Below, piece by piece: positions 28,840 to 39,314 of a stretch of DNA of 64,000 nt (positions within the stretch are counted from its first letter, which is position 1; the number at the start of each line of letters is the position of its first letter). Source of the stretch: Leptolyngbya sp. 'hensonii' (GTDB taxonomy: Bacteria > Cyanobacteriota > Cyanobacteriia > GCF-001939115); assembly GCF_001939115.1 (NCBI RefSeq), contig NZ_MQTZ01000017.1:134869-198868 (forward strand). The letters run 5' to 3'. The translations under genes and the position numbers were made by a program. The notes under the pieces are model-generated. The model worked only from the letters and a program-made list of their open reading frames with translations. It had not been told where the DNA came from and did no database searches.

Positions 28840-31800
28840 ATGGCTCAACCTCTCACCATTAGGCTCCTGGGAGGCTTCTCCCTAACAGAAGGCAACCGCC
28901 CCCTGGGAACGCCGATCACGGGACGATCGCAAGCCCTGCTGGGCTTCCTGGTGTTGCATCGCCATGCAGCCCAGACCCGACAGCGGATCGCCTTTCACCT
29001 CTGGCCCGATTCCAGCGAGGCTCAGGCAAGGGCAAACCTGCGGAAGGAATTGAGTGGCCTGCGTCGCAGCCTGCCCCAGGCCGATACATTGTTGTGGGTA
29101 GATGCCAAAACAATGCAATGGATCGGAACTGAGATCGCCACGCTGGATGTGGTCGCATTTGAATCTGCCGTGCAAGCCGCAGAGCAGACCTCCAATCGAG
29201 GGGAAGCTAAATCCAGGCTGGAACAGGCTCTGCAGCTATATCAAGGAGATTTGTTACCTGACCATCCGGATGGGTGGCTTATCCCCGAACGGCAACGACT
29301 GCAACAGCAGGCCGGGTGGGCCTTAAACCGACTGGTTACCCTATTAGAAGCACAACAGGATTACACCAGGGCCATCGCCTACGCACAACAGATGCTGCGG
29401 CTGGATGGGTTAAATGAAGCAACCTACACCACCCTCATGCGCTTGCATGAGTTAACCGGCGATCGAGCCAGTGCACTGCAGGTCTACCACCAGTGCATGA
29501 CTGTCCTGCGGGAAGAACTAGGGATCGACCCCAGTCTGACCACGCGCAGACTGTATGAGCAACTACTACGGGAAGAGACCGATCCCGAACAGCCCCCCCT
29601 GAAACCCAGCAAGGCCCCACCTATCCCCTCCAGCCTACCTCCATTCCCCGCAGGAAGCAGACCTCCGTTGATTGGACGCCCGCAGGAGTGGGCCTGCATC
29701 CAGCAATGGGCTAAGGCCATCCTGCAGGACTGGCCTGACCCGAAATCCAGGCCAGCGATGCCGATAGCGCCCAGAGTCCTGCTGTTGTTGGGGGAACCTG
29801 GCATTGGCAAAACCCGATTATTGGAAGAACTGGGAGAGCGCGCTGCAGGTCAGGCTCAGATCCTGTGGGGCCATGGCTATGCTCCTGAGATGACGCGACC
29901 CTATGGGGTCTGGATTGATGCCCTCCGGAATGCAGCCATCACTGCCACCGTCCCGCTCCCTCCAGAACTAGGGTTCTGGCTACCTGAACTGGGACACCCT
30001 TCTCCAGCACCACCCGATCTGAGCCATTTGCTGGATGCCATGGTTCAAGTTCTGGCGCAATGGGTCCACCAAACCCCCCTGTTCGTGTTTCTGGATGATC
30101 TGCAATGGGTCGATGAAGCCTCCTCAACCGTGCTGCATTACGCGATCCGCCTGCTGCGGCCTTTGCCCGTCTTGTTTGCCTGCACTGCCCGATCGGGAGA
30201 ACTGGCAGAGAACGCAGCCATGATGCGGGTCATCCAGGCTCTGAGACGGGAACAACAGATCCAGACCCTAGAATTGCGGCCCCTCGATCGGGAAGAAACG
30301 GCAGATCTGATTCGCAGCACCTCAGAGGTGCATGTCCCTGGCCTCTCTCTGGCCATCATCAATCAGGTCTTCATCAACAGCGGCGGCAACCCCCTCTTCG
30401 CTCTGGAAATTGCCCGCTCCCTGGGTCAGACCAACCCTGCTCCCACCCACAATCTGGCCGCGCTGATCGGCGATCGTTTACAGCGCCTGGACGCCCCGAT
30501 ACGGGAATTGCTGCCCTGGGCAGCCGCTCTGGGACGGAGCTTCAAACCGACAACCCTGGCTCTGGTCGCCGATTATCCTCTGCCCAGGCTGTTAACGGCG
30601 ATCGAGACCCTGGAGCAACAGGCCATTATCCGTCCTGGTTCTGGCCTGGGTCAGGATACAGGCTATGACTTTGCCCATGACATTGTGCGCCAAGTCGTCT
30701 ATGAACAACTCTCCCCACCTCGCCGCCAGATGGTACATTGGCAGATTGCCCAGCGGTTGCAGCAGCAGGCCAACCAGAACAACGGCTTAATCAGTGATAT
30801 TGCTCATCACGCTGCCCTGGCTGGCGATCACCCCCTGGCCACCGCTGCCGCCCTCGCCGCCGCCACCCATTGCCTGAAGGTCTTTGCCTATGCTGAAGCC
30901 CTGGAGTTAGCCCAGCAAGGTCTGCAGCATTGCCAACACCTGGATCCATCCACCAGACTGCCGTTGCAGTTGGGCTTGCTGCGGATTTGCGCCCTGGCAG
31001 GCGTGACCTGCGATCGAGCAGCACAACTGGAACAGGATGTTCATCACCTAATCCATGAGGCCCAATCCCTGGGTCTAAATGATGCCGCTGCTGTTGGGCT
31101 AGAGACCCTGGTCATCTGGCAGTTCGATCGGAGCAATTTTACAGCGGTTCACCACCAGTCCCTGCAAGTAGCAGCAGCCAGTCAGGCTGCCAGCCCAGCA
31201 ACAGCAGCGCGCATGCTGGCTTACAGCGGATCCTGTCTGGCGGAAATTGGGCGAGACCTGATCCGGGCCGAAGCGTTGCTGGAGTCGGCCCAGACCCTTG
31301 CAGCCAGAGTAGGACTGGAGATTTGTGACATTTTCAGCGGTTTGGGCTGTGTCCATCGTCATCATGGACGATACCCTGAGGCCCGATCGCTCCTGCAGCG
31401 GGCCTGCCACCTGGCCAGAGCTGAACAAGATCACTGGCGGGAATTCACGTACATCAGCTATCTGGCCATGACCGAACTGGAAGCCGGGAATCCAGAGGCA
31501 GCCCTACCCTACTGCGATGAAATGTCGGCTGTGGCCGCCAACATCCAGGGAGAAGGGAGTGAAGCGGCTGTAGCTGGAGCTCTGGCTGCCTTAGCTCGAT
31601 ATCAACGACAGCCCACGGCAGTGCTGAACCAGGAGTTGAATCAGGGGATTACAACCCTGCAACAGGTGGATACGAAACGGATGCTGGCCTATGTGCTGAT
31701 TGGTGCAGCCACCGTCGATTTGCGCTGCGGTCGCCCGGACCTCGCTGTCTCCCACGCTGAAACGGCGCTGCAAACCGCCCAGATCGTGAATCATCCCAGC

Positions 31801-31992
31801 GAAATTGCCCTCAGTTGGGCTTTGTTGATCCAAAGTCTGCTGGCCCTGGGAGAACGCCAGCAGGCAGTCGCTCATTTTACGGCCTTACACCCGACCCTCG
31901 ATCGTCTGGATCTGAACCATCTGGCCCAAATCGCCGTTGATCAGACCCTCCAGCAGATACAACCCACAGACCCATCCATTGCATTGAGGTGA
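28840..31992 (+). CDS. BTAD/AAA-type transcriptional regulator with TPR tail
   Basis: The 1050-residue protein begins with a SARP-like winged helix (about 5-95; IRLLGGFSLTEGNRPL, ARANLRKELSGLRRSL). A BTAD helical repeat follows (about 100-245; DVVAFESAVQAAE, ALQVYHQCMTVLREELGIDPS). The AAA/NTPase domain (about 270-560) has Walker A GEPGIGKTRLLEEL and Walker B FVFLDDLQWVDEAS. The C-terminal half is TPR-like helical repeats. Proteins of this build are large signal-sensing activators. Its stop overlaps or abuts the next gene and eight genes follow in the same direction, so it may regulate that cluster; this is inference. Confidence 0.9.
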   Translation: MAQPLTIRLLGGFSLTEGNRPLGTPITGRSQALLGFLVLHRHAAQTRQRIAFHLWPDSSEAQARANLRKELSGLRRSLPQADTLLWVDAKTMQWIGTEIATLDVVAFESAVQAAEQTSNRGEAKSRLEQALQLYQGDLLPDHPDGWLIPERQRLQQQAGWALNRLVTLLEAQQDYTRAIAYAQQMLRLDGLNEATYTTLMRLHELTGDRASALQVYHQCMTVLREELGIDPSLTTRRLYEQLLREETDPEQPPLKPSKAPPIPSSLPPFPAGSRPPLIGRPQEWACIQQWAKAILQDWPDPKSRPAMPIAPRVLLLLGEPGIGKTRLLEELGERAAGQAQILWGHGYAPEMTRPYGVWIDALRNAAITATVPLPPELGFWLPELGHPSPAPPDLSHLLDAMVQVLAQWVHQTPLFVFLDDLQWVDEASSTVLHYAIRLLRPLPVLFACTARSGELAENAAMMRVIQALRREQQIQTLELRPLDREETADLIRSTSEVHVPGLSLAIINQVFINSGGNPLFALEIARSLGQTNPAPTHNLAALIGDRLQRLDAPIRELLPWAAALGRSFKPTTLALVADYPLPRLLTAIETLEQQAIIRPGSGLGQDTGYDFAHDIVRQVVYEQLSPPRRQMVHWQIAQRLQQQANQNNGLISDIAHHAALAGDHPLATAAALAAATHCLKVFAYAEALELAQQGLQHCQHLDPSTRLPLQLGLLRICALAGVTCDRAAQLEQDVHHLIHEAQSLGLNDAAAVGLETLVIWQFDRSNFTAVHHQSLQVAAASQAASPATAARMLAYSGSCLAEIGRDLIRAEALLESAQTLAARVGLEICDIFSGLGCVHRHHGRYPEARSLLQRACHLARAEQDHWREFTYISYLAMTELEAGNPEAALPYCDEMSAVAANIQGEGSEAAVAGALAALARYQRQPTAVLNQELNQGITTLQQVDTKRMLAYVLIGAATVDLRCGRPDLAVSHAETALQTAQIVNHPSEIALSWALLIQSLLALGERQQAVAHFTALHPTLDRLDLNHLAQIAVDQTLQQIQPTDPSIALR

Positions 31993-31994
31993 TT

Positions 31995-32519
31995 ATGGCA
32001 TTTGTGATTGTAGAAACCCTGGCGGACTATCCCTTGACCCCAGAAAACCCCACAGAGACGGATCTAAGAGTCCTGGCCTGTCTGGCAGAACGTCACAGCA
32101 CCTGGCGTTATTCCCTTTTGTCCACCGATCGGCGACGCATGATCTGCACCTTCGAGGCTCCCGATGCAGAATCCGTGCGGGAATCCTATCGCAAGGGTGG
32201 CGGGTTCTTCAGTTGCATCTGGAGCGGGGAGCTGATTCAACCTGCAGGGGGGCTCCCTCAACGCCAGGAATCGAAACTGAAAGTCATTGAAGGCACCTAT
32301 CCTCCCATCAGCGTGGAAGCCTGGAATGATGCCAATCACAAAACCCTCAATTGTTATGCTGAACGGGGAATTGAGTGGATTCAGTCCTACATTTCCCTTG
32401 ATCGCACCCGGGTCATTTGTGAACTCAATGCTGCCGATGCAGAATCCGTGCGGCAAACTCAACACAAGGTTGGCATTGCCTTCGATCGGGTCTGGTCAGC
32501 CCGTCTGTTGTTGCCCTAA
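31995..32519 (+). CDS. Tandem DUF4242-like protein
   Basis: ATG at 31995 with GAGGTGATT in front gives 174 residues; a GTG at 31989 is possible. Two similar ferredoxin-like modules are visible, about 2-75 (CLAERHSTWRYSLLSTDRRRMICTFEAPDAESVRESYRK) and 95-172 (CYAERGIEWIQSYISLDRTRVICELNAADAESVRQTQHK). DUF4242 members are annotated as possible nickel-binding proteins. It is coupled to the BTAD regulator. The function is unknown. Confidence 0.8.
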   Translation: MAFVIVETLADYPLTPENPTETDLRVLACLAERHSTWRYSLLSTDRRRMICTFEAPDAESVRESYRKGGGFFSCIWSGELIQPAGGLPQRQESKLKVIEGTYPPISVEAWNDANHKTLNCYAERGIEWIQSYISLDRTRVICELNAADAESVRQTQHKVGIAFDRVWSARLLLP

Positions 32520-32636
32520 TGCCGACAATGGCCTGCCGATCCAGAGGGGGGATCGCTCTGGCAGCAGTTTCGAATCGCGACGATCGGTAGCTTAGGGTCA
32601 GCAGTCCAAATTAGCAGGCTGCATCGGAGAAACCCC

Positions 32637-33263
32637 ATGTTTCAGACCCAATTTGATCTCACCCCGACTCATCGCCCCACTGCAGCGCCCCAGATGCGCA
32701 TCGCCAGACCGATCGATCAAAAATATGTGATTGCGACCCTGGTCCTAGCCTTCAGTCAGGATCCGATCGTCCGCTGGATGTATCCAGACGCCTATCAGTA
32801 TCTGACCCATTTCCCCCGCTTTGTTCAGGCATTTGGGGGAAAAGCCTTTGACCAGGGAACTGCCTATTCCATCAACACCTATGCTGGTACAGCCCTCTGG
32901 TTTTCCCCAGGGGTGGAACTGGATGCAGAGCCCCTGTTCGAACTAGTGCGCCACAGTGTTTTTGAGCCAGAGCAGGCAGACGTATTTGGCCTGTTCGAAC
33001 AGATGGATCACTATCATCCCCACCCCCCCCACTGGTATCTACCCCTGATCGGGGTTGAACCCACCTCCCAGGGCCAGGGCTATGGTTCAGCCTTGCTACA
33101 GCATGTTCTACAGTATTGCGATCGCGATCGTATCCCAGCCTATCTGGAATCCTCAAACCCAGCCAACATTCCCCTTTACCAGCGGCATGGCTTCGCGCTC
33201 CTGGGGACAATTCAGGCAGGCACATCCCCCACCCTGTTCCCCATGCTCCGCCAGCCGCAATAA
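32637..33263 (+). CDS. GNAT-family acetyltransferase
   Basis: The 208-residue protein shows the acetyl-CoA loop in WYLPLIGVEPTSQGQGYGSALLQHVL (Q-x-x-G-x-G/A) and the following YLESSNPANIPLYQRHGF. The N-terminal 30 residues are non-conserved. It starts 117 bp after the DUF4242 gene. The substrate is unknown. Proteins of this type are common in specialised-metabolite loci but also elsewhere. Confidence 0.85.
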   Translation: MFQTQFDLTPTHRPTAAPQMRIARPIDQKYVIATLVLAFSQDPIVRWMYPDAYQYLTHFPRFVQAFGGKAFDQGTAYSINTYAGTALWFSPGVELDAEPLFELVRHSVFEPEQADVFGLFEQMDHYHPHPPHWYLPLIGVEPTSQGQGYGSALLQHVLQYCDRDRIPAYLESSNPANIPLYQRHGFALLGTIQAGTSPTLFPMLRQPQ

Positions 33264-33368
33264 TCCCCACAGTCATGGCACACAATGCCTCTTCTTGCCT
33301 GCCATGACTCCTAGACAGAATGCCTTCTCCCTTATCCCTACCCATTACTCTCTACAGGAGTGACCCTC

Positions 33369-34349
33369 ATGACACGCTACAGACACCAATTACCGCAACT
33401 TTCGAATAGCCTGTTTATCACTGACGGGGGCCTTGAGACCACCCTCATCTTCCATCAAGGCTGGGATTTACCAGATTTTGCCGCCTTTGACTTGCTCAAA
33501 CATCAGACCGGCTATCAAGCCCTGCGACAATACTTCCAGAGCTACGCTGTCCTCGCCCAAACCTATGGGATGGGGCTAGTCCTGGAAAGCGCCACCTGGC
33601 GAGCCAACCCAGACTGGGGCACAAAACTTGGCTATGATCGGGCCACCCTGGCAGAAATGAATCGACGGTCGATCGCCCTGCTCCATCAAATTCGCACCGA
33701 ATACGAGACCGTTCGTAGCCCCATGGTGATCAGCGGCTGCCTGGGTCCCCGTGGCGATGGCTACATCCCATCTGAGGCCATGACCATCGGTGAAGCCGCA
33801 GTCTACCACCAGGACCAGATCACCACCTTCTGGGAAGCCGGGGCAGACCTAGTCACGGCCATGACCATGAACTATGTGGAAGAGGCGATCGGGATTGTCC
33901 AGGCGGCCCAGTTCACCGGGATGCCGGTGGCCATTTCCTTCACCGTTGAAACCGATGGAAACCTGCCTACGGGACAGCCTCTGGCAGATGCGATCGCTCA
34001 GGTTGATGCCATTACCGATCAGGGGCCAGCCTATTACATGATCAACTGTGCCCATCCCACCCATTTCGAGGCTTTGTTGAGCCGGGGTGAGCCCTGGGTA
34101 GGGCGGATTCGGGGCCTCCGGGGCAATGCCTCTGCGAAAAGTCACGCGGAACTGAATGAGGCCACAGAGCTGGACGATGGCAATCCAGAAGAGTTGGCCC
34201 AGCAGTACCGTGACCTGAGAGAGCAATTACCCCATCTGACTATACTGGGAGGATGTTGTGGAACCGATCAGCGCCACATTGAGTCTATTTGCAAAGCCTG
34301 TGTGCCCCTGGTGTGGACCCATTTCTCCAGCATAGGAGCCTGGATGTGA
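33369..34349 (+). CDS. Homocysteine S-methyltransferase family protein
   Basis: ATG at 33369 is 8 nt after AGGAG and gives 326 residues. The fold markers are FITDGGLETTLIF at the start, the zinc ligands in YYMINCAHP and ILGGCCGTDQRHI near the C-terminus, and SGCLGPRGDGY. The MmuM/Hcy family moves a methyl group from S-methylmethionine, betaine or SAM to homocysteine. There is no cobalamin or folate domain. Its presence in this cluster could mean a methyl-transfer step, but a stand-alone role in methionine salvage is as likely. Confidence 0.88.
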   Translation: MTRYRHQLPQLSNSLFITDGGLETTLIFHQGWDLPDFAAFDLLKHQTGYQALRQYFQSYAVLAQTYGMGLVLESATWRANPDWGTKLGYDRATLAEMNRRSIALLHQIRTEYETVRSPMVISGCLGPRGDGYIPSEAMTIGEAAVYHQDQITTFWEAGADLVTAMTMNYVEEAIGIVQAAQFTGMPVAISFTVETDGNLPTGQPLADAIAQVDAITDQGPAYYMINCAHPTHFEALLSRGEPWVGRIRGLRGNASAKSHAELNEATELDDGNPEELAQQYRDLREQLPHLTILGGCCGTDQRHIESICKACVPLVWTHFSSIGAWM

Positions 34350-34395
34350 GCGATCGTTCCCTCTCAACTTTGGACGCTGTTTGACCACCCTTGCC

Positions 34396-35418
34396 ATGCA
34401 ATTTGCAGACTTTTGGTACGTGGCTGCTCTAGAGCGGGACTTGAAACCCAATCGGGTGTTGAGTCGGGTCATTCTGGATGAATGGCTGGCTCTATTTCGG
34501 GGACCAGACGGGCAGCCCGTTGCCCTGCGCGATCGTTGCCTGCACCGCAACAGCCGCCTCTCCCCTGGCACGGTCTGCCGGGGCCAACTCCATTGCCCTT
34601 ACCATGGTTGGGTCTATGACCAGACTGGCACCGTGGTTGCCGTGCCTGCGGAAGGGGACCATTACAGTCCCTCTCCCCCACGACAGGCCGTTCGCTATGA
34701 CACCTGTGAACAGGATGGTTACGTTTATGTGCGGCTGGCCCCCTCTCCTCCAGAAGTCTTCCGCCCCTTTGCCCTGCCGTTCTACCAACAGCCCGGTTGG
34801 GAAACAGTCCGTGTGATTAATCGCTTCTCCAACTCTGTCACCAACTGCGCCGAGAACTTCATCGATATTCCCCATACAGTTTCGGTCCATCCCGGCGTGT
34901 TTCGCACCCCCCACCGCCAGAAACTGGACATGACTGTGGAACGGCGCAATGGCTCCGTCTTCGTGGTCTATCGCAACGAAACCACTAACCTGGGCTGGTA
35001 TCGCCCCTTTCTCAACTGGAATGGACATCCGATCCAGCATACAGACGAGTTCCACATGCCCAATATCACCAGCGTGGAGTACAATCTGGGGCCCCGACGC
35101 CGACTGTTCATCACCAGCCAATCCATCCCGGAGACCGCAGACTCCACCCTCGTCTATACGGATGTAACATTCAACTACGGCCTCTGGAACAAACTGGCCC
35201 GCCCTTTTGTTTACTGGACAGCCCAACATATCATTCATCAGGACATGGCCATTTTAGGTCTGCAACAAGAGACGATCGCCCGCTATGGCCAGCAGTTCTG
35301 CCACACGTCTGCCGACACCATTCATGTCTTTGTGGAATCCATTCGCGCCGCGATCGCCCGGGGTCAGGACCCCCGTACCCTGCCAAACCAGAGGGTGGAG
35401 GTGACCTTCTGGGTATGA
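34396..35418 (+). CDS. Rieske non-heme iron oxygenase, alpha-subunit type
   Basis: ATG at 34396 gives 340 residues (MQFADFWYVAALERDL). The [2Fe-2S] Rieske ligands are in RDRCLHRNSRLSPG and LHCPYHGW (about 48-70). The catalytic iron motif is in NCAENFIDIPHTVSVHPG (about 153-170). The protein belongs to the aromatic-ring-hydroxylating dioxygenase or steroid/choline-type Rieske family and would need an electron donor not encoded here. The hydroxylated substrate is unknown. It follows the methyltransferase gene by 46 bp. Confidence 0.9.
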   Translation: MQFADFWYVAALERDLKPNRVLSRVILDEWLALFRGPDGQPVALRDRCLHRNSRLSPGTVCRGQLHCPYHGWVYDQTGTVVAVPAEGDHYSPSPPRQAVRYDTCEQDGYVYVRLAPSPPEVFRPFALPFYQQPGWETVRVINRFSNSVTNCAENFIDIPHTVSVHPGVFRTPHRQKLDMTVERRNGSVFVVYRNETTNLGWYRPFLNWNGHPIQHTDEFHMPNITSVEYNLGPRRRLFITSQSIPETADSTLVYTDVTFNYGLWNKLARPFVYWTAQHIIHQDMAILGLQQETIARYGQQFCHTSADTIHVFVESIRAAIARGQDPRTLPNQRVEVTFWV

Positions 35419-35458
35419 CGGTATAGAGAAAGTAGAGAAGTTGAACTATCGCTTTAGT

Positions 35459-35599
35459 ATGTATCAAAAGGGAACGGATGGCATGGTGAGAATGGCCACC
35501 ACCATTATCATGGCTACAGCATCCGTGGTCGTTCTGGCCAATCTCACGCCCGCGATCGTGGATCTAGTGAGAACCCTGTCCGCAACGCACGGACCGTAA
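35459..35599 (+). CDS. Possible small membrane peptide, 46 aa
   Basis: ATG at 35459 gives a 46-residue frame with one hydrophobic stretch (TTIIMATASVVVLANLTPAIV). It fills the only long gap inside the cluster. There is no clear ribosome site and no family match. It may be chance. Confidence 0.3.
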   Translation: MYQKGTDGMVRMATTIIMATASVVVLANLTPAIVDLVRTLSATHGP

Positions 35600-35619
35600 G
35601 GTTCATCCCAGTTGGTGCC

Positions 35620-36342
35620 ATGGTTATCTTCTTCGCCTTTGTGTCCCTGATCGCTCTGACGCTCGTGCACGATCGCTCCCTGACTCGCTTCCGCACAAAA
35701 TCCTGGGAAGATTGGGTGCTGGATCTGGTGGGCCTGGGTCTACAGGGTCTGGTGATTCCCCTGCTGCAGATCACGGTGGTGTACCGTCTTTACCAAAGCC
35801 TCTGGCCCACTTTACAAGGTATTGTCGTCATACCAGGCAGCCTTGCTTTTCTCCTCAGTTTTGTGTTGGTGGATTATCTCTACTATTGGAACCATCGGCT
35901 GCTGCATACCCGCTGGCTCTGGCCCTGGCATCAGGTGCACCACACTGTCACCCAGATGGATGTGCTGGGCACCTCCCGCAACAGTCTGGGGAGCAGTTTT
36001 CTGATTCTGTACCTGTGGGTGCATACCCTGGCCCTCTACCTGCTGCAAGACCCCAGAGGCTACCTGGTCGGGGTGAGTCTGACCGCAATGTTGGACCTGT
36101 GGCGACACAGTGAGCTCAACCCTGCTAGCGATTCACCGGTGGGGGGATTTCTCTCTCCCTGGCTAATTCTGCCCCAGGATCATACCCTGCACCATGACCC
36201 TACCCTGAGCCCAGGGTATTACGGGGCCAATCTAAAGCTGTGGGACCGGTTGCATGGGACCGATCGGCTCTCCCTCCTTTCCTCTGCTACCCTGTTCCCT
36301 GAGTTACCGTTGATACGCAAGCTGTTCTGGCCCTTTCCATGA
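35620..36342 (+). CDS. Sterol desaturase / fatty acid hydroxylase family protein
   Basis: The 240-residue membrane protein has the di-iron histidine boxes HRLLH, HQVHH and HTLHH, in the order and spacing of the FA_hydroxylase superfamily. About four hydrophobic segments are present. The superfamily hydroxylates or desaturates sterols, fatty acids, carotenoids or sphingoid bases. The start codon at 35620 is ATG. Its stop region overlaps the next gene by 4 bp, so the two are coupled. The actual lipid substrate is not evident. Confidence 0.9.
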   Translation: MVIFFAFVSLIALTLVHDRSLTRFRTKSWEDWVLDLVGLGLQGLVIPLLQITVVYRLYQSLWPTLQGIVVIPGSLAFLLSFVLVDYLYYWNHRLLHTRWLWPWHQVHHTVTQMDVLGTSRNSLGSSFLILYLWVHTLALYLLQDPRGYLVGVSLTAMLDLWRHSELNPASDSPVGGFLSPWLILPQDHTLHHDPTLSPGYYGANLKLWDRLHGTDRLSLLSSATLFPELPLIRKLFWPFP

Positions 36343-37013
36343 CCTTCCTCAGCCGAATTCTCAGCTTCTTTCCGGCGTTCGTGCTGGTGACGATCGCAGT
36401 TGCTTTTCTCTACCTTTGTATTGCCCCCGGTGTTCTCAGTATCCTGGCCCTGCTGTTTAGCTTCTATGGTTTTCCCCTGCTCGTCTTCCGCCTGCACAAC
36501 GTTTTCTATCCCCTGCAAGAAGGGATCAGTGATTTGATCGGGCCGACCTATTCACCCTGGTGGGGTAGTCACCAGATCCAGAGTTTATACATTGCATTTC
36601 CAGCCCTGGAAAGCATCCTCAGACTGATTCCCGGCGCTTTCTCCCTGTGGTTGCGTCTCTGGGGGGCACGCATCGGTCGATCGGTCTACTGGACCCCCAA
36701 ACTGGAGATTGCCGATCGCAGCCTGCTGGAGATCGGCGATCGGGTTATCTTTGGCTACCAGATTGCCCTCTGCTCCCATATCATCAAACCCCGTCGCCAG
36801 AATCTGATGCTGTACGTGCGGCGAATCAAAATCGGCAGTGAGGCATTCCTGGGGTCAGGCTCCTACATCGGTCCAGGGGTGGAAATTGAGGCTGGAACTT
36901 CCGTGCCAATCGCCAGTCACCTGTATCTGAATACAAAAGTCCAGGAAGCCTCGGTAACGGATCAGACAACCTATAGTAACGAGACGGATGGAGGAGATGG
37001 GGATGATGAGTGA
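36339..37013 (+). CDS. Membrane-associated hexapeptide-repeat transferase-like protein
   Basis: The 224-residue protein has two N-terminal hydrophobic helices (about 10-55), then a left-handed beta-helix pattern with repeated I-G-x-x hexads (ARIGRSVYWTPKLEIADRSLLEIGDRVIFG; IKIGSEAFLGSGSYIGPGVEIEAG). It lacks the obvious catalytic His of LpxA-type enzymes, so the acyl- or acetyl-transfer role is tentative. The C-terminus is acidic. It overlaps the desaturase-like gene by 4 bp and precedes the GH3 gene by 40 bp. Confidence 0.75.
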   Translation: MTFLSRILSFFPAFVLVTIAVAFLYLCIAPGVLSILALLFSFYGFPLLVFRLHNVFYPLQEGISDLIGPTYSPWWGSHQIQSLYIAFPALESILRLIPGAFSLWLRLWGARIGRSVYWTPKLEIADRSLLEIGDRVIFGYQIALCSHIIKPRRQNLMLYVRRIKIGSEAFLGSGSYIGPGVEIEAGTSVPIASHLYLNTKVQEASVTDQTTYSNETDGGDGDDE

Positions 37014-37053
37014 AAAACCTCTGTTAGCAACTCCACAGGGAGAATCTTAATCC

Positions 37054-38568
37054 TTGTCTCTGGTGGCCTCCCTGCTGAGAATGGCCCTGGCCCCGGTGGC
37101 CCAGGGATTTCATCAGGCTCTGGAGCACCCTCAGCAGGCTCAAGGGAGGGTCCAGCGTCAGATCTGCGATCGCCTCCTCGCCAGCCAATATGGTCAGGCC
37201 CTGGGAGTGCAGTCTGTGGCAGATTGGTCCCAGATCCCGATCGTGGACTATGACGAGATGGCCCCCTGGATCCAGCGACAACAGGGCAATACAGCACCTA
37301 TCCTGACTCCAGAACCCATCCTCTTTTACGAAAAAACGTCGGGGAGTCGGGGACCGGCCAAGTGGATTCCCTACACCCGATCGCTACGCCGATCTTTTAA
37401 TCACCTATTCTGCATCTGGGCCCATGATCTGCTCTCCCATGGCCCCCCCTTTGCCAGCGGCAAAGCCTACTTCTGCATTTCCCCTCAACTGAATGATCCC
37501 CCCTCTGGGGATCTTTCCATCGGTCTAGCAGATGACTCTGAGTATCTCGATCCCTGGCTTCGCTGGCTGCTAAAGCCGTTTCTGGTGATGCCACCAGGTC
37601 TGACCCGGCTCCAAGACCCAGAGCAGTTCAAACATCAGCTCTGTCTGGCCTTACTCCAGGACGTGAATCTGGAAATCATTTCCATCTGGAGCCCCAGTTT
37701 TTTACAGGTCCTCCTGCATTACATCCAGGCCCACAGAACCGAACTCCAGTCGGAGCTCCAGGGAAAACTCTCCCCCGATCGTTTGGGCCTGTTGGGAGCA
37801 TCCCCCCTCCCTTGGACCACCCTCTGGCCCAAGCTGAAATTGATTTCCTGTTGGGATAGTGTCCATGCTGCTGATCGGGCCGCAGTGCTGCGCCAACTTT
37901 TCCCCGATGTGCTGGTCCAGGGAAAGGGACTGCTGGCCACCGAGGCCCCGATCACGGTGCCGCTGATCCAGGCCAGGGGCTTTCTGCCGCTGCTGGATGA
38001 GGTCTTTCTGGAATTTGCCGATGCCGACAACCGGATTCATCTACTCCATGAGCTGGAGATGGGGACTCCCTACAGTGTTATTCTTTCCCAGAAGGGAGGA
38101 CTCTACCGATATCGCCTGGGCGATCGGGTGCGAGCAACCCACCAGTACAAAGCCACACCCTGCCTGGAGTTCCTGGGACGCGATCAACCCCTCAGTGATC
38201 TGGTGGGGGAGAAGCTCCACGAAGACTTTGTGCGGGATGTTTTGACCACCCTGGATCTCCCTGATACGAGCTACCAGAGCCTAGTATCAGTGTTACACCC
38301 CACACCCCATTACGTCCTGCTCCTGGATCGAGCCTCCCAGCCCCCTGAGAACCTTGCCCGTACCCTCGATCGAGGACTCTGCCAGTCTTACCAGTATCGT
38401 CAGGCCCGTCACCTGGGTCAGCTCACCGCCGCCCAGGTGATCGTGTCTGAGACCATCGCAGCCACGATCGTCCAGGTCAGACTGCAGCAGGGCCAGAAAT
38501 GGGGAGATGTGAAACATCCTCTGCTGCTCACCACTCCCCTGCCTCATCTCCCCAGGGATGGACAGTAA
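37054..38568 (+). CDS. GH3-family acyl-adenylate amide synthetase
   Basis: The 504-residue protein has the GH3 ATP/AMP motifs FYEKTSGSRGPAKWIPYT (near 93-110) and YRYRLGDRVRATH, and the late segment FLGRDQPLSDLVGEKLHED. GH3 enzymes (plant JAR1 type) adenylate a carboxylate and join it to an amino acid. The start is TTG at 37054 or ATG at 37081 (residue 10). It is the last gene of the run. Bacterial GH3 members are little studied and the acid and amine are unknown. Confidence 0.9.
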   Translation: MSLVASLLRMALAPVAQGFHQALEHPQQAQGRVQRQICDRLLASQYGQALGVQSVADWSQIPIVDYDEMAPWIQRQQGNTAPILTPEPILFYEKTSGSRGPAKWIPYTRSLRRSFNHLFCIWAHDLLSHGPPFASGKAYFCISPQLNDPPSGDLSIGLADDSEYLDPWLRWLLKPFLVMPPGLTRLQDPEQFKHQLCLALLQDVNLEIISIWSPSFLQVLLHYIQAHRTELQSELQGKLSPDRLGLLGASPLPWTTLWPKLKLISCWDSVHAADRAAVLRQLFPDVLVQGKGLLATEAPITVPLIQARGFLPLLDEVFLEFADADNRIHLLHELEMGTPYSVILSQKGGLYRYRLGDRVRATHQYKATPCLEFLGRDQPLSDLVGEKLHEDFVRDVLTTLDLPDTSYQSLVSVLHPTPHYVLLLDRASQPPENLARTLDRGLCQSYQYRQARHLGQLTAAQVIVSETIAATIVQVRLQQGQKWGDVKHPLLLTTPLPHLPRDGQ

Positions 38569-38610: not shown

Positions 38611-38994
38611 CTACTTACCCTGATAGTGGATTTTCAACCACTGATTCAGTTCTGTTTCCGTCTCAGCGTAAACGGCTTCGCCGGTTTGCGGATCATAGGC
38701 ATACCACCAGTTCCCCCCTGCTTCGTCCATCACCTGACGGACCTGCAGCCCAGCATCGGGGGCGATCGCTTGCATCAGACTCCGCCGCAGACGACCCAGT
38801 TTTTCGACCAGAGAGGAACCAGCAACCTGGGTCTTCTCAACCACGAGCTGCCGTCGTTCCTGTTCCAACAATTCCAACAGTTGCGTATTATTATTCGCTT
38901 TAGCAATTTCGGCGCGATGGCTCAGGGAGTCGAGGATATTATTCCGATGTTTATAGGCCAGGGCGAACTGGTTGAAGTGTAAGAGATTAGCCAT
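38611..38994 (-). CDS. Conserved hypothetical protein, 127 aa
   Basis: The ATG at 38992-38994 (MANLLHFNQFALAYKHRNNI) is preferred; a longer reading to 39135 adds a Cys- and Leu-rich leader that looks like non-coding sequence. The protein has a long helical middle segment (about 20-65, rich in E, Q and L) and a C-terminal part with NWWYAYDPQTGEAVYAETETELNQW. I do not recognise a function. It is convergent to the GH3 gene and divergent from hemE. Confidence 0.65.
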   Translation of the reverse strand: MANLLHFNQFALAYKHRNNILDSLSHRAEIAKANNNTQLLELLEQERRQLVVEKTQVAGSSLVEKLGRLRRSLMQAIAPDAGLQVRQVMDEAGGNWWYAYDPQTGEAVYAETETELNQWLKIHYQGK

Positions 38995-39314
38995 AAGTGC
39001 GCAGCCCAAGGTATTTAATAGACGACAGGAAAAAACTAGATGCATACAAGCATAATGTTTTTCTGTATTTAAAAGTACAAAATTTAGCGCTTGTTTGCAT
39101 TCCTGCCAGAGGGTGAAAATCAATGCAAAACGCAACCTTAACCATGCAAAACCTGCAAGCTAGATCAGGTTCCTATTCATCAGCCTTAAACCAGACCGGA
39201 TCAAGACTTTTTGAATCATATTTTGAACTTCTGTAACAGTCTTCCTGAGCAAAAATGTGTCCCCGCAATCGCTGTATAATCTGATCCGGCAACAGGTGTG
39301 AAATCCTCATGGGA

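Follow-up and report, generated by a model that had tools for sequence, protein, structure and literature searches.

A GH3 amide synthetase module in Leptolyngbya sp. 'hensonii' is one half of a split ten-enzyme pathway of the Rieske-containing CylC type

The four genes that end in a GH3-type acyl acid amido synthetase in the genome of Leptolyngbya sp. 'hensonii' (5.94 Mb) make up half of a pathway of ten enzymes, which cyanobacteria retain or lose together. They lie at positions 34396–38568 of the stretch of DNA that was analysed, C17:134869–198868 (64,000 nt; hereafter the window, whose numbering is used unless a contig or locus is named), and the locus is a split member of the gene clusters called Rieske-containing in a survey of CylC homologues (Eusébio et al. 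2021, PMC8406957). The main text of that survey describes 36 such clusters, more than of any other type of CylC cluster that it covers. They have a single CylC homologue and two to four Rieske proteins, usually also a sterol-desaturase-family protein, and no known product; our literature search found no product for these clusters. The pathway described here resembles them in its three groups of Rieske protein (only one of which, C, is represented in the window), its PF04116 protein and its lack of a carrier protein, but differs in that the set is split into halves 41.7 kb apart, the one CylC-like gene of the genome lying in the half away from GH3. New here are GH3 and a hexapeptide acyltransferase (HEX) as near-obligate partners, the division of the set, and a residue signature in the CylC-like protein (F4); the main text of the survey does not use the words 'GH3', 'hexapeptide' or 'acetyltransferase', yet acyl transferases are mentioned.

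A sequence-only reading of the window had described one locus of eight co-directional genes with tight or overlapping junctions. Open reading frame coordinates and Pfam matches confirm the genes, their common direction, their names and both junctions singled out (31992/31995 and 36339–36342), and all eight stand at the coordinates first given for them. A single eight-gene locus is rejected by gene context in other genomes: the order of genes five to eight is conserved, genes one to four are not part of it, and the window genes are two units side by side, 28840–34349 and 34396–38568. The upstream unit, all on the forward strand, encodes a SARP/AfsR-like regulator of 1050 aa (28840..31992; Pfam BTAD, AAA_16 and TPR), an SCO4226-like protein with a duplicated domain (31989..32519; two Pfam copies), a GNAT acetyltransferase (32637..33263; Pfam) and a homocysteine S-methyltransferase family protein (33360..34349; S-methyl_trans, PF02574). 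The SCO4226-like gene can start at GTG 31989, overlapping the regulator gene, or at ATG 31995, the next ATG after the regulator stop at 31992. The downstream unit, also on the forward strand, encodes Rieske C, a terminal oxygenase of the alpha3 monooxygenase type (34396..35418; Pfam Rieske and VanA_C), a membrane di-iron hydroxylase/desaturase (FAH; 35620..36342; FA_hydroxylase PF04116, E 4e-24), the membrane-anchored, left-handed beta-helix acyltransferase HEX (36339..37013) and GH3 (37054..38568, starting with TTG 37054). Rieske C follows the methyltransferase gene after 46 bp and is followed by FAH after 201 bp, FAH and HEX overlap by 4 bp (36339–36342, ATGA), and 40 bp separate HEX from GH3. 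For Rieske C the start at ATG 34396 is more likely than TTG 34381, since relatives begin MKFEDFW or MQFADFW. The 201-bp gap holds a 46-codon open reading frame with one apparent membrane span (35459–35599); the gap is much shorter in most relatives, and this frame may be due to chance or specific to the strain. On the reverse strand beyond GH3, a 174-aa open reading frame (38611–39135) has a sub-threshold match (33 bits vs a cut-off of 50) to PirA, which regulates arginine synthesis and interacts with PII; the match is embedded within a longer protein.

The regulator, SCO4226-like protein, GNAT and methyltransferase had been counted among the pathway's members, a view that the comparison with other genomes overturns. 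The upstream unit is separate from the GH3 module, since it forms an intact operon in the same order in a genome without the pathway GH3 (G104, L220:4648-10343; 59, 62, 68 and 69% identity, respectively), and none of its four genes stands beside the GH3 module at the other pathway loci examined. Partial versions occur in G264 (L214) and G026, a similar regulator-headed operon being present in G264, and a search with the methyltransferase gave orthologues in 40 of the 388 genomes sampled, in no case adjoining the GH3 module as far as was seen. The four genes appear as a conserved unit unrelated to the GH3 pathway. We therefore regard it as very improbable that all eight genes form a single regulated operon in which the BTAD protein controls GH3 production, even though all are co-directional, only 46 bp part the methyltransferase gene from Rieske C, and promoter and terminator scans gave no signal above shuffled sequences; transcription may nevertheless read through from one unit into the next in this genome. 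The GNAT of the upstream unit was also considered as the acetyltransferase of the pathway and rejected; the pathway's own GNAT-fold candidate is of a different family and is encoded 45 kb away.

The sequence-only reading had proposed a search for the Rieske–desaturase–hexapeptide–GH3 order across cyanobacteria, and the order does recur: among 30 GH3-anchored loci from other genomes, Rieske C–FAH–HEX–GH3 was found in 17 (18 loci with the window), with insertions in a few. As a rule the module closes a more extended series in these relatives, standing behind six further genes, the full order being F6–Rieske A–F7–F4–Rieske B–F5–Rieske C–FAH–HEX–GH3, which is complete in about ten genomes; F6, F7 and F4 are of approximately 250, 305 and 410 aa, and F5 is a 2Fe-2S ferredoxin. 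In the genome studied here, the same order holds for F6, Rieske A, F7, F4 and F5, which are encoded on the minus strand 41.7 kb downstream of GH3 (C17:215119–219358, about 80251–84490 in window numbering), and Rieske B lies on another contig (C44:63013–63993). The genome has one CylC-like gene, that of F4, at this distance from the GH3 module. The earlier reading had thus picked out a true half of the pathway, six of the ten genes, among them those of the CylC-like enzyme and two further Rieske oxygenases, being beyond the window and so out of its sight.

Among 388 genomes of the class, the same sample as above, 28 carry the close GH3 clade, 29 carry HEX and 27 carry close F4, the carriers spanning 13 families; the clades were delimited at score gaps chosen after the search (3.7e-82 to 4.4e-45 for GH3, 1.7e-122 to 2.1e-83 for F4). 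GH3 and HEX share 28 genomes, with no genome having GH3 only and one having HEX only, and GH3 and F4 share 27, with none having F4 only and the single GH3-only genome being 70% complete (Fisher p about 1e-40 for co-occurrence, a value that ignores shared ancestry). This co-occurrence is not due to linkage, because the genes lie far apart in about ten genomes, including that of the window, G217 and G258; GH3, HEX and the CylC-like protein are near-obligate partners even where they are scattered. Scattering in close relatives had been named beforehand as an argument against the locus. The genes are indeed scattered in those genomes, but the set is still co-retained, and since the pathway genes are still kept as a set, scattering does not speak against a common function here. 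The proximal half was also found in the dispersed genomes G333, G313, G014, G017, G027, G155, G217 and G258. In G217 (L160:2439-7190 and L160:11389-12465) the proximal block is flanked by a CHASE/PAS/GAF/GGDEF/EAL protein of 1583 aa and a fatty-acid desaturase, an arrangement that fits the description, in the main text of the 2021 survey, of a dispersed Synechocystis version with the CylC homologue beside a GGDEF/EAL gene and a ferritin-like protein (PMC8406957). A point against the pathway as one set is G163, which has a tight trio of F6, F7 and HEX (L161:8108-10500), without GH3, a CylC-like gene, FAH or the ferredoxin; since only these three are kept, a subset can function by itself, or else the set is in decay there. 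Most of the set also occurs in a Myxococcales metagenome-assembled genome, where HEX–GH3 lies on a different contig from Rieske A, F7, F4, FAH and Rieske B; provided that this genome is correctly binned, transfer between phyla is suggested.

The window GH3 is the sole PF03321 match in its genome. Its GH3, GH3_M and GH3_C Pfam domains are all above cut-off and its nucleotide-binding motifs are intact (TSGSRGPAK, LLATEA and GLYRYRLGD) and are those of the OlsH/JAR1 class (cf. PMC12493201). Compared with solved structures, its profile finds JAR1 at 6e-21, the nearest being plant jasmonate, auxin and benzoate ligases. OlsH uses ATP to link ornithine to free fatty acids and requires neither ACP nor CoA (PMC12493201). 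As an OlsH equivalog the window protein was rejected (NCBIfam NF052613, 18.7 bits vs a cut-off of 620), a score too low to indicate its substrates. A divergent GH3 (32% identical) forms an operon with a fatty-acid-desaturase-like protein and an F6 relative in G170 (L060:9055-12535), which suggests that the F6 family also serves another GH3 pathway; since it again joins a GH3, an F6 relative and a membrane oxygenase, a lipid is mildly favoured. A larger, second GH3 family (about 550–600 aa, 25–35% identical) is common in the class, for example at L061 and L062, and adjoins an enolase-superfamily gene in two loci.

Motifs are likewise intact in the oxygenases that were checked. Rieske C keeps C-x-H...C-x2-H and DIPHTVSVH, and its nearest solved relatives are NdmA, DdmC and SxtDIOX/SxtT; Rieske C, like Rieske A, resembles monooxygenases of the KshA, SxtDIOX, NdmA and DdmC type. 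A maximum-likelihood tree places all Rieske copies in three groups, A, B and C, each arising by one change (supports 71/63, 100/99 and 100/100, respectively), with the window protein in C and the C44 copy in B, so that all three groups occur in this genome. FAH has its three His boxes (HRLLH, HQVHH and HTLHH), and relatives at 46–58% are present in every pathway genome tested; it distantly resembles OlsE, an identification that was rejected (NCBIfam NF052566, 45.6 bits vs a cut-off of 475). The Pfam hexapeptide match of HEX is sub-threshold (23.8 vs 27); the profile of its family finds galactoside O-acetyltransferase (LacA) at 2e-10, aligned over the beta-helix, and the invariant H147 aligns with the catalytic His115 of LacA. 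From the breadth of this alignment and the invariant histidine, HEX is likely to be an active acyltransferase on a membrane anchor.

The remaining proteins are more distant from known families. F6 has no match in a Pfam search, and F7 is weakly ferritin-like; the family profiles of both found no relative among solved structures, and both structure models are poor (two sequences each; mean pLDDT 45 for F6 and 38 for F7). The F6 model, with GNAT folds as the matches listed (E 6e-5), gives weak support to a possible GNAT-like beta-alpha topology. F4 weakly matches AurF and, like the CylC/NocO halogenases, carries QExxH and HxxDExxH, including the distinctive Gln of that family, in all pathway members read, that of this genome among them. 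It departs from those halogenases at the position of NocO Glu252, which is Gln (KLVQH) in every pathway F4 read and Glu in the relatives linked to FAAL or ACP. As set out in excerpts of a 2025 study of NocO (PMC12101540), chlorination requires Glu252, the only one of nine active-site residues to vary, Gln being found there in 'a small subset' of homologues, to which those excerpts tie no pathway. Because of this Gln, halogenation by F4 is not claimed. F4 differs further from CylC and NocO in having no adjoining carrier protein; neither a carrier protein nor an AMP-ligase was seen at the pathway loci, and it is ordinary CylC homologues that FAAL and ACP genes adjoin.

Our current view, to which we incline somewhat, is of a carrier-free pathway in which amide formation by GH3, acylation and repeated oxidation would yield an oxidised, amide-linked, lipid-like metabolite, with the BTAD unit unrelated to it. 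GH3 would use ATP to activate a free carboxylic acid, which is most likely to be a fatty acid, and couple it to an amino acid or amine; since the free acid is activated with ATP, neither a carrier protein nor a CoA ligase would be needed. HEX would next acylate a hydroxyl or amine of the membrane-bound amide, and the GNAT-fold protein F6 may acylate an amine. FAH, the three ferredoxin-fed Rieske monooxygenases and the two soluble di-iron proteins would add hydroxyl, carbonyl or unsaturation, possibly chlorine, with F5 supplying electrons to the Rieske enzymes. The logic is like that of ornithine lipids (N-acylation, O-acylation and headgroup hydroxylation), although the proposed product would be much more oxidised. 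In the OlsH/OlsI pathway of Singulisphaera (PMC12493201, 2025) a bacterial GH3 likewise makes an N-acyl amino acid before O-acylation, whereas here the LacA-like HEX stands in the place of OlsI and there are many additional oxygenases. The product chemistry is what we infer from the enzymes present, for which an oxidised, amidated compound, as the sequence-only reading had also proposed, seems a sensible interpretation.

The main rival assigns the same ten genes to an amide that is small and soluble, and aromatic or alkaloid-like in nature. The acid that GH3 couples to an amino acid would be aromatic or indolic, and its ring would be oxidised by the Rieske and di-iron enzymes. Bacterial GH3s and Rieske enzymes do also act on aromatic acids, which counts against a lipid; the substrates of the closest Rieske relatives of solved structure are xanthines, dicamba, saxitoxin precursors and ketosteroids, and the plant ligases nearest to GH3 point the same way. 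However, genes for aromatic-acid synthesis were not recognised at the pathway loci, a lipid substrate fits better with a hydroxylase in the membrane and an acyltransferase anchored to it, and the known CylC relatives use fatty acyl chains (PMC8406957, PMC12101540), so that we hold the aromatic product to be doubtful. More improbable still, in our judgement, is that the pathway builds no N-acyl amide and tailors an existing membrane terpenoid or pigment, such as a carotenoid, hopanoid or tetrapyrrole. The superfamily of FAH does include sterol and carotenoid hydroxylases, and the best NCBIfam match of the Rieske proteins is the 4beta-methylsterol monooxygenase SdmA; these matches are partial and, at 65 to 77 bits, far under the cut-off of 600, no recurrent terpene or tetrapyrrole genes lie beside the module, and tailoring would leave GH3 without a role.

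Returning to the carrier-free amide pathway, it is possible, and we advance it tentatively, that its product belongs to a class of metabolite, cyanobacterial (and myxobacterial), that has yet to be described; a GH3, two acyltransferases and six oxygen-activating enzymes would make it, among them a Gln-variant CylC enzyme that would act on an untethered amide by halogenation or other C–H chemistry. With GH3 and a LacA-like acyltransferase as near-obligate partners, the likely bond-forming step would be the making of an amide from a free acid, and the partnership with GH3 gives the Rieske-containing CylC pathway a concrete assay. Because the set is retained even with its genes scattered, cluster-calling tools will miss the pathway. 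Should the CylC-like enzyme prove to need no carrier protein for its work, it would make an attractive catalyst for C–H functionalisation.
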